Assembly (NCBI RefSeq): GCF_030519375.1
Contig: NZ_JAUMKB010000019.1
Location: 1-64,000 of the forward strand
DNA length: 64,000 bases
Direction: 5' to 3'
Origin: Mucilaginibacter tolerans
GTDB taxonomy: Bacteria; Bacteroidota; Bacteroidia; Sphingobacteriales; Sphingobacteriaceae
In this document: in pieces, positions 14,140 to 38,270 of the stretch
Position numbering within the stretch: position 1 is the first letter of the stretch
Layout: each line of letters starts with the position of its first letter
Notes under the pieces: model-generated
What the model was told of the DNA's origin: nothing
The model's input: only the letters and a program-made list of their open reading frames with translations
Database searches by the model: none
Translations under genes and position numbers: made by a program

Positions 14140-14877
14140 CTAATATAACTTCTGCAATTTCGCCTCCGGTCTGTCTTTGTTTTTCTGATAATAGGCAAAT
14201 TCTTTCTTGATATACTGTATCAATTGGTAATCATTCCATTCTTTCACATTTTCATAGGACGGCCTGAAAGCTACCATAAATTTATCGATCTCGTCATCCG
14301 GCATTTTGGTGACACTTTTTACTAATTCCTTAGTGTATCTTTTATCAACTGCACTGGCCTCCTGTTCATTTTTTGCATACTCGGCGAAGCGGCGGGCTTG
14401 TGCCGGCGCCTTCCCGAACAGGTTGTAAAAAGCTGTGATCGGTGAATTGATAAATTGCCAAACCGGAAGAGACTTGCCATTATTAAAAATACCCTGGCTG
14501 CGGTATTCTTTCATTACCTCGTTAAGCTCCTGTTGTTTGGATTGACCCTTGATCGTCACCTGGTTTAGTTCGATAACCGGTTGTAAGTAAACCACCAGGT
14601 CGCTGTTGTTGACAACTGCAATTTTTTGCGGAGTATATCCGGCTTTGGCGATCTGTAATGTATCGCCGATTGAAGCTTTAATGCTAAAACCACCCAGCTC
14701 ATCACTCATCATTAGTGTCTGGGTTTTCAGGTCGGTTACTATGGCCTGTGATATCCTGTCGGGCGTGCTTTTTTTAAATATAATGCCCTTTATAGTCAAT
14801 GTTTGTTGCGCATAGCTTAGGCGACACAATAAGCAAAGCATTAAAGTACAGCATATTAGTTTTTGGGAGAAACGCAT
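14140..14877 (-). CDS. Secreted carboxypeptidase-regulatory-like domain protein
   Basis: I chose the ATG at 14877, which gives 245 aa starting MRFSQKLICC; an upstream in-frame ATG at 14907 would add ten residues before the signal sequence. A signal peptide (about 22 residues, ending LSYAQ) is followed by a CarboxypepD_reg-like beta-sandwich (TLTIKGIIFKK...DELGGFSIKASIGDTLQIAKAGY). This module is common in Bacteroidota surface proteins. The charged alpha-helical C-terminal half (about 120-245) has no recognised motif. An envelope-associated role is likely; the specific function is unknown. Confidence 0.75.
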   Translation of the reverse strand: MRFSQKLICCTLMLCLLCRLSYAQQTLTIKGIIFKKSTPDRISQAIVTDLKTQTLMMSDELGGFSIKASIGDTLQIAKAGYTPQKIAVVNNSDLVVYLQPVIELNQVTIKGQSKQQELNEVMKEYRSQGIFNNGKSLPVWQFINSPITAFYNLFGKAPAQARRFAEYAKNEQEASAVDKRYTKELVKSVTKMPDDEIDKFMVAFRPSYENVKEWNDYQLIQYIKKEFAYYQKNKDRPEAKLQKLY

Positions 14878-14925
14878 TCCTGCAAAAATATACAATGTAA
14901 AACGCAAAAAATGTAAAAAGATGTT

Positions 14926-15003
14926 AAAGAAGTCCGCAAGTCCGCAAAAGTCGGGAAGACCGAAAGATTTTACTTGCGGACACCGGACTTGCCGACTTTC
15001 GGA
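14926..15003. repeat. Imperfect palindrome of the GTCCGAAAG word family (copy B)
   Basis: AGTCCGCAAGTCCGCAAAAG at the left pairs imperfectly with CTTGCCGACTTTCGGACT at the right, forming arms of about 34 bases. It fills the divergent gap between the 14140-14877 gene and yicC. It shares the GTCSG-AAAG vocabulary with the element at 14054-14138. Confidence 0.62.
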
Positions 15004-15020
15004 CTAAAAATCTATCTTTG
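14989..15020 (+). promoter_or_regulatory. Putative promoter of yicC
   Basis: TTG at 14989-14991 and a perfect TATCTTTG at 15013-15020 are separated by 21 bp. The ATG of yicC begins only 3 bases after the -7 element, so the transcript may be leaderless. The TTG overlaps the right arm of the palindrome at 14926-15003. Confidence 0.5.
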
Positions 15021-15023
15021 CGC

Positions 15024-15899
15024 ATGATAAAATCAATGACAGGGTATGGGATTGCCAGTTTTGATTCAGGCAGTACAAAATATACTGTTGAAATCAAATC
15101 CCTGAACAGCAAATTTCTCGAATTATCGCTTCGTATTCCAAAATCATTCTCGGAAAAAGAATTCCAGTTACGTAACGAGTGCAATAAGCAGATCGAACGC
15201 GGAAAGGTTAATCTGTCTATCAATGTTGAGCAAGCAGATTCATCAGTAAAAGCCGCGGGCATCGATAACGATTTATTGAAAAACTACTACAATCAGCTTA
15301 AAGCTGTGAGTGAAGAACTGGGCGAACATGGGGGCAATTTGCTGCAATTGGCTCTTGGTTTACCAGAGGTGGTGAAGTATGATGAAGAGTCAGTTTCAGA
15401 AGAGGAGTGGAAGATAGTGGAACGCACCTTTCAGCAGGCGCTATCCGCCTTTCAAAAATTCAGGGCCGATGAAGGTAATGTGCTGGAGCAGGATGTGAAA
15501 ATGCGTATTGGGTCTATCCTGAAAAACCTGGAACTAGTGGAGATTGAAGAACCTAAACGCATCCCGGTAATCCGTGAACGTTTAGCTCTGTTTTTGAATG
15601 ATTCAGTTGGCCGCGAAAATGTAGATCAAAATCGTTTTGAACAGGAATTGATCTATTATATTGATAAACTGGATATTACCGAGGAAAAGATCCGCCTGAA
15701 AAGCCACTGCGACTATTTTATCGAAACGCTAAAGAACGCTGACGCCAATGGCAAAAAGCTGGGTTTTATTTCGCAGGAGATCGGACGCGAGATCAACACC
15801 TTAGGCTCAAAAGCTAATGATGCCAACATTCAGAAGCTGGTAGTAGGCATGAAGGAAGAATTGGAAAAAATAAAGGAACAACTACTTAATGTGCTGTAG
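15024..15899 (+). CDS. YicC-family endoribonuclease
   Basis: The protein starts MIKSMTGYG, the conserved N-terminus of the YicC family, which fixes the start at 15024; an in-frame TTG at 15018 is part of the promoter -7 element. At 291 aa it has the usual length, with the N-terminal YicC domain (KYTVEIKSLNSKFLE) and the C-terminal DUF1732 domain (KSHCDYFIETL...GKKLGFISQEIGREINTLGSK). YicC proteins have been reported as RNA endonucleases. It is upstream of gmk, the common pairing in many bacteria, separated by a repeat-filled 109-base gap. Confidence 0.92.
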   Translation: MIKSMTGYGIASFDSGSTKYTVEIKSLNSKFLELSLRIPKSFSEKEFQLRNECNKQIERGKVNLSINVEQADSSVKAAGIDNDLLKNYYNQLKAVSEELGEHGGNLLQLALGLPEVVKYDEESVSEEEWKIVERTFQQALSAFQKFRADEGNVLEQDVKMRIGSILKNLELVEIEEPKRIPVIRERLALFLNDSVGRENVDQNRFEQELIYYIDKLDITEEKIRLKSHCDYFIETLKNADANGKKLGFISQEIGREINTLGSKANDANIQKLVVGMKEELEKIKEQLLNVL

Positions 15900-15903
15900 T
15901 TAG

Positions 15904-16006
15904 TTGAAGAGGTTGTAAATGTTGTAGTGGTTGAAGTAATTATAGCTCCGACATTTACAACCATTACAACCATTACAACCATTACAACCATTACAACCAT
16001 TACAAC
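15904..16006 (+). repeat. GTTGTAA-word palindrome with CATTACAAC tandem repeat
   Basis: The right side (15962-16006) is five exact tandem copies of the 9-mer CATTACAAC, preceded by the variant CATTTACAAC. The left side (15904-15936) contains GTTGAAGAGGTTGTAAATG and related words that can pair with the tandem array. The array ends 2 bases before the gmk ATG. Confidence 0.85.
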
Positions 16007-16008
16007 GA

Positions 16009-16581
16009 ATGCCAGAAGAAGGTAAACTCATCATATTTTCAGCACCGTCCGGAGCAGGTAAAACAACCATTGTGCAGTATCTGCTTACTAAAATTCCTGA
16101 TCTTGAATTTTCTATTTCGGCAACAACCCGGCCGGCGCGTGGCGATGAAAAACATGGTAAAGACTATTATTTTATCAGCAAAGAAGAGTTTCTGCATAAG
16201 ATTGCCAAAAAGCACTTTGTGGAATTTGAAGAGGTTTACAGTGGTACTTTTTATGGGACATTGCGCGAGGAAATAGAGCGTATCTGGGCTAACGGTAAAG
16301 CTGTGATATTTGATATCGATGTGGAGGGCGGCTTACACCTGAAACGTAAATATGGTGAAGCAGCTCTCGCTATCTTTGTTCAACCACCGTCGTTAGAGGT
16401 TTTAAAAGAGCGTTTAACGGGTCGTGGTACGGATAGTAAGGAGAAATTGCAGGAACGGTTTGCAAAAGCTGAAAAAGAATTGAATTATGCCCCTCAATTT
16501 GATATTATCCTGAAAAATCACGATCTTCAGACGGCATGCATTGAGGCGGAGCAGTTGGTGAGTGATTTTCTTCGGAAATAA
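16009..16581 (+). CDS. gmk: Guanylate kinase
   Basis: This 190-aa enzyme phosphorylates GMP to GDP. The P-loop SAPSGAGKTT lies at residues 10-19. The GMP-binding stretch SISATTRPARGDEKHGKDYYF follows near 35-55, and then VFDIDVEGGLHLKRKY. The length is typical. Its translation-initiation region consists of CATTACAAC tandem repeats, with no Shine-Dalgarno sequence. It is followed by nadD after a repeat-bearing 143-base gap. Confidence 0.96.
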   Translation: MPEEGKLIIFSAPSGAGKTTIVQYLLTKIPDLEFSISATTRPARGDEKHGKDYYFISKEEFLHKIAKKHFVEFEEVYSGTFYGTLREEIERIWANGKAVIFDIDVEGGLHLKRKYGEAALAIFVQPPSLEVLKERLTGRGTDSKEKLQERFAKAEKELNYAPQFDIILKNHDLQTACIEAEQLVSDFLRK

Positions 16582-16720
16582 GTTCATAGTTAATGGTTCA
16601 TAGTTCATGGGCCGTACCCGGATCCGGGTTAAATAGATTGAATTCTTCTCGGTCTATACTATAGAATATAATGCCACTTGATAATTAATTGCTATGATCT
16701 ATGAACTACTTACCATGAAC
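16582..16720 (+). repeat. GTTCATAG-word palindrome
   Basis: The left arm 16582-16610 (GTTCATAGTTAATGGTTCAT...) matches the reverse complement of the right arm 16691-16720 at most positions. The centre holds a perfect 14-base palindrome around GGATCC (16616-16629). The right arm ends 4 bases before the nadD ATG, and the left arm begins at the gmk stop codon. Confidence 0.75.
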
Positions 16721-16724
16721 TGAC

Positions 16725-17303
16725 ATGAAGATAGGCTTATTTTTTGGTTCATTTAACCCTATACACATCGGACATTTGATCATCGCCAATTATATGGCGA
16801 ACCATACTAACCTCGATAAGGTTTGGCTGGTAGTATCGCCGCAAAACCCCCTGAAAAAATATGGCGATTTGATCAATACCTACGACCGTCTGGAGATGGC
16901 AAAACTGGCTACCGATAATTCAAGAAATATTGCAGTAAGTGATGCGGAACTTCGCCTGCCGCAACCATCATATACCATTGATACCTTGACCCATTTGAAA
17001 GAGAAACACCCGGAGCACGAATTTGCTATCATCATGGGTTCTGATAACCTGGGTACACTGCATAAATGGAAAAATTATAAACTTATTCTGCGCGATTACC
17101 GCATCTATGTTTATCCACGCCCCGGCTATGAGAACGCCGAATTTGCATCGCACCCGTCAGTCACTATTACCATGACTCCGCTGATGGAACTCTCTGCCAC
17201 ATTCATCCGTAAATCCATCGCAGAAAAGAAGAATGTTCAGTATTTTGTGCCTGATCCGGTATTGGAATTTATTGAGAGCAAAGGTCTGTACCGCCATGGG
17301 TGA
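16725..17303 (+). CDS. nadD: Nicotinate-nucleotide adenylyltransferase
   Basis: This 192-aa enzyme adenylates nicotinate mononucleotide in NAD synthesis. The nucleotidyltransferase signature GSFNPIHIGHL (residues 8-18) carries the HxGH motif, and SATFIRKS near 161-168 is the ISSTxIR-type motif. GSDNLGTLHKWKNY is the middle substrate-binding stretch. It lies downstream of gmk; the intervening palindrome occupies its leader. Confidence 0.95.
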   Translation: MKIGLFFGSFNPIHIGHLIIANYMANHTNLDKVWLVVSPQNPLKKYGDLINTYDRLEMAKLATDNSRNIAVSDAELRLPQPSYTIDTLTHLKEKHPEHEFAIIMGSDNLGTLHKWKNYKLILRDYRIYVYPRPGYENAEFASHPSVTITMTPLMELSATFIRKSIAEKKNVQYFVPDPVLEFIESKGLYRHG

Positions 17304-28379: not shown

Positions 28380-28384
28380 TTCGG

Positions 28385-28480
28385 ATATGCAAATTTTGGA
28401 TGTGCAAATGTGCAGATTTTAATTTGAAGATGTGCAAATGTGCGGATATGCAAATGTGCAAATGTGACGATGTGCAGATG
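28385..28480 (-). repeat. ATGTGCAA-word tandem repeat array
   Basis: The sequence is made of variants of GATGTGCAAATGTGC and GATATGCAAATGTGC over roughly 95 bases, ending 5 bases from the aminotransferase start codon. It is a degenerate minisatellite; there are no evenly sized unique spacers, so it is not a CRISPR array. Confidence 0.8.
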
Positions 28481-28531
28481 TTGGACCTCAATAATTTAAT
28501 AATTCGAAATTGTATGTTCGAAATTCGAAAT

Positions 28532-28561
28532 AAAAAAAGCCATTCCGTACTGGAATGGCTT
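28532..28561 (-). terminator. Terminator of the PA2169-family gene
   Basis: AAGCCATTCC at 28537-28546 pairs perfectly with GGAATGGCTT at 28552-28561. On the minus strand it is followed by seven T (28532-28538). Confidence 0.9.
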
Positions 28562-28585
28562 CTACCATTATAATTAACTATGAAG

Positions 28586-38183: not shown

Positions 38184-38189
38184 TATTTT

Positions 38190-38265
38190 GGTTGTAAGGG
38201 TTGTAGAGGTTGTAAAAGTTTATAACCCCTGCAACCTTTATAACTTCTACAACATTTAAAACATA
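38190..38265 (+). repeat. GTTGTAA-word palindrome before tsf
   Basis: The left part (GGTTGTAAGGGTTGTAGAGG...) and the right part (CTTTATAACTTCTACAACAT...) form an imperfect hairpin with arms of about 25 bases. It occupies nearly all of the gap between rpsB and tsf and ends about 6 bases before the tsf start codon. Confidence 0.65.
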
Positions 38266-38270
38266 TAAAA

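Follow-up and report, generated by a model that had tools for sequence, protein, structure and literature searches.

Translation at gene junctions can be governed by mRNA structure. In the ribosome termination structures (RTS) of Chemla et al. (2020) (PMC7518266), a stable structure located directly 3' of a stop codon is proposed to govern re-initiation, acting as insulation. RTS are found mainly where the next gene lies at least 25 nt away, and they are defined by folding energy over ~40 nt, with no sequence make-up described (PMC7518266). In translational coupling by RNA unfolding, a hairpin at the downstream start can be opened by the upstream ribosome; known cases are particular hairpins, and none has been described whose arms consist of tandem words exchanged in the course of evolution (reviewed in PMC12548453). 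Bacteroidetes lack Shine-Dalgarno signals, and initiation in this phylum is tuned by structure and upstream adenines (PMC6847099). This reliance on start-site structure adds to the relevance of the setting described here. Stop-proximal hairpins are thought to control operon translation, and their origin and persistence are unclear.

Short tandem words in bacterial spacers form a second set of related systems. Cyanobacterial STRR heptamers resemble the words reported here in that they are degenerate 7-bp units, repeated in tandem and restricted to non-coding DNA; they are not known to occur as matched inverted arms running from stop to start. Direct repeats of the heptamer TAACTGA stand before starts, including those of some Bacteroidetes (MacGregor 2015, PMC4679880); a role in translation has been suggested for them, and the array adjoins the start codons of presumably essential genes (PMC4679880). 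TAACTGA is a single fixed heptamer in direct repeats, with one indirect repeat reported (PMC4679880), whereas in the system reported here, seen in front of gmk in Mucilaginibacter tolerans, the arms pair with each other, a single genome holds many words, and the word at one fixed locus is replaced between species. The words found here (GTTGWA, GTCATT, GTTCATT, GTTCATRG and others) form inverted arms and are not exact TAACTGA repeats. REP/BIME palindromes (PMC3733652) are likewise dispersed, intergenic and of high copy, and roles in mRNA stability or termination have often been suspected for them. However, REPs bear a conserved GTAG or CGTC tag (PMC3733652), while the word-hairpin arms listed in this work share only the word-array design and have no common sequence. 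Unlike RTS, the gmk hairpin is built of tandem words, covers the whole spacer together with the next start, and has words that turn over between species.

The tandem array and the fold of the gmk leader

The window, by which we mean the whole 64,000-nt stretch of M. tolerans DNA that was analysed, was inspected from 15300 to 16700. The word CATTACAAC is present there as five exact copies, preceded by a variant first copy of 10 bases with one extra T (Table 1). The array is followed by GA and then by the gmk ATG, leaving a gap of 2 nt. Tandem Repeats Finder described the array with a period of 9, 5.8 copies, 100% matches and a score of 104. The initial annotation had reported five exact 9-mers and one variant ending 2 bases before this ATG, which the sequence and Tandem Repeats Finder both confirmed, and had regarded the array as the translation-initiation region of gmk, a view that our results support; its further interpretation found partial support. 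A pattern search of the 5.2 Mb genome found an exact adjacent pair of CATTACAAC at one other site only (C13:16239), and the long perfect run is therefore unique to the gmk leader. We take the upstream gene to be yicC because yicC and gmk are neighbours in a conserved order; the same yicC C-terminus stands before gmk across the family.

Complementary words (GTTGAAGAG, GTTGTAAAT, GTTGTAGTG and GTTGAAG) lie 5' of the array at 15903-15936. The 134-nt leader folded with an energy of -34.6 kcal/mol, compared to -18.7 +/- 3.3 kcal/mol for shuffled sequences (z = -4.9; 0/200 shuffles). The array forms the 3' arm of a hairpin occupying the entire yicC-gmk spacer: the left arm begins 3 nt past the yicC stop codon, and the right arm ends 2 nt before the gmk start. 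Since the words are identical, several pairing registers compete in the leader. In the full-span register the right arm comprises 15965-16006, while in the minimum-energy register the left arm pairs with the inner copies, the stem extends over 15903-15988, and the last two copies and the GA before the ATG are unpaired, so that the last 20 nt 5' of the gmk ATG are free in the minimum-energy fold of this genome. The suggestion that a stem covers the start thus held for the pairing with upstream complementary words, but in the minimum-energy fold not for these last two copies and the GA. The right arm appears to have expanded recently, its five perfect copies going past the pairing capacity of the left arm. 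Rfam 15 covariance models gave no match at the gathering score in 15600-16800.

A long stem past a stop codon could also attenuate or terminate transcription at the yicC-gmk junction, and similar hairpins do occur in convergent spacers. However, the stem is A+T-rich (~37% G+C), and GA-ATG comes straight after the right arm, with no U-run. True terminators in our genome sample differ in having a G+C-rich stem and a U-run (for example, L126:3639). An intrinsic terminator was rejected because of the missing U-run, and we consider attenuation or termination at this junction extremely unlikely.

Table 1. Coordinates of features in the window that are discussed in the text
Feature	Position	Strand	Basis
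yicC-like gene, C-terminus ...EQLLNVL; stop TAG 15897-15899	15024..15899	+	ORF, gene calls
Left (5') arm: four degenerate GTTGWANNG words, G+T-rich	15903..15944	+	inverted-repeat alignment, fold
Loop in the full-span register (other registers, other loops)	15945..15964	+	fold, inverted-repeat alignment
Variant first copy, CATTTACAAC	15952..15961	+	sequence
Five exact CATTACAAC, most of the right (3') arm, A+C-rich	15962..16006	+	sequence, TRF
gmk (guanylate kinase), 190 aa	16009..16581	+	ORF; 108 relatives by sequence
Second word hairpin, GTTCATRG words, fills gmk-nadD spacer	16582..16724	+	
rpsB-tsf spacer, GTTGTANNG word hairpin, comparison case	38184..38270	+	

The yicC-gmk junction in Mucilaginibacter and beyond

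We compared the window with 50 relatives, using one genome per species (51 loci in all). Most of the relatives are titled Mucilaginibacter, and the rest are unclassified MAGs placed among them on the tree. A word hairpin filling the yicC-gmk gap was found in 51/51 loci, and its persistence at this junction across species is therefore clear. The spacers were 70-174 nt long, mostly <110 nt, with a median arm of 32 nt; the left arm lay a median of 4 nt from the stop codon, counted from its first base, and the right arm a median of 3 nt from the ATG. The fold z of the spacer had a median of -5.1 and was below -3 in 44/51 loci, compared to a median of -1.2 and 1/30 for comparable gmk-nadD spacers from the same loci. 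Beyond these loci, the hairpin is likewise carried by the genomes G061, G065, G070 and G011, the G065 spacer being identical to that of L070; G070 has kept it, yet 100 kb of its sequence elsewhere showed no word hairpin. The promoter element TAHHTTTG was absent from all 51 yicC-gmk spacers, and a promoter of gmk's own in the spacer was rejected on this basis. The GTTCATRG hairpin between gmk and nadD is unrelated to the yicC-gmk one; it is missing in most relatives and recognisable in a minority only.

The words themselves, which are 7-9 bp long, differed by species and included GTTGWA (period 8 or 9), GTCATT, GTTCATT, GTTCATRG, GTTATTG and GTTGATT. When mapped on a yicC+gmk tree, the word classes required a minimum of 24 changes with the hairpin present throughout, and at least 11 when GTTGWA was set against all other classes. 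The tree is a quick protein tree with several weak forks, and the word classes are rough, some of them being alike, so that 11 is the safer figure. The nearest two relatives (~95% identity in both proteins) carry period-8 GTTG words, as against the period-9 array seen here. Words in the relatives are degenerate, and perfect multi-copy runs are not their rule. The gmk start codon falls inside a word copy in 12 species. Word, period and copy number do vary extremely between species, as a hypervariable leader would predict, but since the same architecture occurs in 51/51 loci and many similar hairpins occur genome-wide, the array is no isolated hypervariable repeat before one gene.

With a hairpin in every species examined and a sequence replaced repeatedly, the shape of the hairpin appears to count for more than its sequence does. 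It is possible, if doubtful, that the junction holds a structure-first element, in which one hairpin shape is inherited across the genus and the word is disposable, being replaced from words circulating in the genome. Word replacement would then go through arm-to-arm copying of DNA.

In a sample of other genera of the family, the two genes were close to abutting in many cases, with stop-start distances of -1, 1, 1, 3, 5, 6, 11, 14, 14, 17 and 18 nt. In five genera (g3, g13, g14, g18 and part of g5) the gap was 61-104 nt and held a stop-to-start hairpin composed of different words, and a few others had gaps of 32-69 nt without a clear hairpin. In this family survey, therefore, spacers of 18 nt or less had no hairpin, and clear hairpins were found in spacers of at least 61 nt. 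The distance was 17-27 nt in Olivibacter, and in three flavobacteria the yicC stop and gmk start codons overlapped or abutted. The short distances in many relatives would suit coupling of the two genes. In E. coli and Haloferax, coupling by re-initiation is reported to fail at distances above ~20 nt (PMC10666635), and a stem able to close the gap by folding would therefore be an attractive way to hold the codons together. As in RTS, the gmk structure is stable and stands directly past the stop codon, and its absence from the short spacers and presence in long ones agrees with the 25-nt limit of RTS, though some spacers of 32-69 nt are bare. In L237 (genus g8), a long AACTTTGAACTTTAAACTTTGAAC array was seen 5' of gmk, with no long upstream ORF within 500 nt.

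Word hairpins across the genome and the rpsB-tsf comparison

We sampled 864 kb of the 5.2 Mb genome (the window and 40 further stretches; 85% coding). Genes were called with a simple in-house finder, and spacers of 35-350 nt were searched for inverted repeats with tandem-word arms. Word hairpins had a density of ~5.7 per 100 kb in this genome, and the values for three Mucilaginibacter were 5.7, 3.0 and 0 per 100 kb. They were found in 37/329 tandem, 6/87 convergent and 6/102 divergent spacers, where ~1, 0 and 2, respectively, were expected from shuffles. The difference between tandem and divergent spacers was not significant (p = 0.13), and we therefore rejected orientation enrichment as proof of coupling. 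In tandem spacers the hairpin started a median of 4 nt past the stop codon and filled a median of 77% of the gap; 27/37 had their start no more than 7 nt from the stop, compared to 14.4 +/- 2.2 for random placement.

The words varied (GTTGTANNG, GTTCATRG, GTCATTA, GAGATTTGAGATATGAG, GTTGATTAAG and others) and were common to unrelated loci of the genome. Their occurrences in non-coding and coding DNA were 36:2, 5:0, 15:0, 22:1 and 13:1. A three-word GTTG pattern had 47 matches genome-wide and none for the reversed control, which led us to reject the reading of a lone repeat. The exact GTTCATRG triple-word pattern was patchy across genera (6/25 and 3/12 in the family and order, respectively), and a single word is therefore no marker of the hairpin class. 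Within the window, the gap that separates yicC from a minus-strand gene (14800-15023) is an example in divergent orientation, with inverted AGTCCGCA-type words of 8 bp that end 18 nt upstream of where yicC is called to start. At 28380-28585, 8-bp ATGTGCAA / GGATATGCAA words and complementary words adjoin minus-strand genes, and similar words are present on contig C13 (L151:3113).

Complementarity of the arms may be kept in the RNA or may arise in the DNA. We applied two tests, namely the count of G-T against A-C mismatches and the stability of the sense against the antisense fold. Non-word short-loop hairpins gave 28 G-T and 32 A-C mismatches; the wobble test is therefore low-powered in near-perfect stems, and these hairpins were dropped as its positive control. 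The rpsB-tsf spacer, which has the same word-hairpin design and is rich in mismatches, was used instead. Its arms (38191-38220 and 38233-38262) are set back from the tsf start. Mismatches at rpsB-tsf were 79 G-T and 16 A-C in 29 species (24 loci against 2, p = 1e-5), and the sense strand was a median of 8.6 kcal/mol more stable than the antisense. Given this G-T excess and the better folding of the sense strand, the rpsB-tsf hairpin is kept as sense-strand RNA. It lies ~25 nt before the tsf start, which it does not cover, and its sequence and words change across the 29 related species.

This sense-strand signature, also expected of an RTS, was absent at gmk in both tests: mismatches were 45 G-T and 55 A-C, and the sense strand was no more stable than the antisense (22 against 29 loci). 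The 37 other tandem word hairpins similarly showed no sense-strand bias (19 against 18). When the word order of the right arm was permuted, a mean of 0.41 of permutations reached the real score at gmk, compared to 0.18 at tsf; in-register pairing at gmk is weak. As shuffling of word order hardly lowers pairing, complementarity at gmk is carried by the words and not by individual pairs. The pattern is consistent with arms being rebuilt at the DNA level more quickly than selection sorts mismatches. Chiefly on this account, our confidence in an RNA role at gmk is no more than moderate.

Maintenance of the word array by DNA-level mutation is thus a serious rival explanation. Inverted word arrays would originate and multiply in intergenic DNA through slippage with template switching between the arms, or by copying of other arrays, and fill spacers up to edges set by neighbouring genes, being functionless at gmk. 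The missing sense-strand bias at gmk and at the 37 other tandem hairpins points this way, as do the near indifference of gmk pairing to word order, the strictly intergenic words common to unrelated loci, the word hairpins in convergent spacers, the uneven density among genomes and the free loss of the gmk-nadD hairpin. We regard such a by-product as a real possibility, somewhat short of an even chance. However, presence in every one of the 51 loci, together with the genome that has no word hairpin elsewhere in 100 kb, is hard to account for without some retention. Hairpins also hug the stop codon more than random placement allows, though the fixed start regions opposite could contribute. With clear RNA-level constraint at rpsB-tsf in a hairpin of the same design, the two junctions make 'structure kept, sequence not' comparatively testable in a culturable genus.

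A possible translational role of the stop-proximal hairpin

Beyond the presence and anatomy of the hairpin, we infer a role in translation. The reading that we favour, tentatively, is that an RTS-like stop-proximal hairpin masks the gmk start and ties gmk translation to ribosomes finishing yicC. On a yicC-gmk mRNA, the hairpin would cover the gmk start region, which lacks a Shine-Dalgarno sequence, and its base would set the yicC stop and gmk start codons side by side. Free initiation at gmk would be damped, and a ribosome ending yicC would melt the base of the stem and so allow initiation. The arms may change length via slippage, and words may be replaced through DNA-level copying, either arm to arm or from other arrays, such that the structure would outlive its sequence.

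In silico, the median probability of being unpaired in the start region was 0.32 for gmk and 0.68 for tsf. Blocking the stop-codon footprint, as a terminating ribosome would do, lowered the predicted cost of opening by >1 kcal/mol in 25/51 gmk loci and in 1/18 tsf loci, the effect at gmk being small (median 0.8 kcal/mol) and absent or reversed in half of the loci. Word hairpins occur in convergent and perhaps also in divergent spacers, where no coupling can take place, and this counts against coupling, as do the missing sense-strand signature at gmk, the weak in-register pairing and the 20 free nucleotides before the ATG in the minimum-energy fold of this genome. Moreover, since the published stop-proximal structures insulate, the sign of the effect on gmk could be the opposite. 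The hairpin would then act as a translational insulator of the classic RTS type, blocking re-initiation after yicC, with gmk freshly initiated on the A/C-rich right arm. Placement directly past the stop codon in spacers of >25 nt is as in published RTS (PMC7518266), and the last 20 nt of the right arm are 45% A and 8% G. Nevertheless, the right arm that fresh initiation would need is itself predicted to be paired in most species, and RTS elements are reported to be depleted inside operons. Insulation is an unlikely role for this hairpin.

Five perfect copies are prone to slippage, and the leader might be a contingency locus in which slippage of the 9-bp array shifts copy number within populations and tunes gmk expression. 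Folding of the window leader in silico gave opening energies of ~15 kcal/mol for 0-1 copies, 5.7 kcal/mol for five and 3.5 kcal/mol for six. The predicted direction of this effect differs from the picture in the initial annotation: copies of CATTACAAC beyond the capacity of the left arm (~five) free the gmk start region in the model, and surplus copies would therefore be predicted to raise, not lower, gmk output. Against a contingency locus stand the degenerate words of the relatives, in which perfect multi-copy runs are not the rule, and the fact that gmk is a housekeeping gene; we consider it very unlikely. Word repeats adjoining start codons need not be phase-variation switches. Perfect GTTCATGG arrays of >10 copies were observed in the related genome G020 (C22:222242-222331 and C29:428864-428960), and are possible places to seek copy-number variation.
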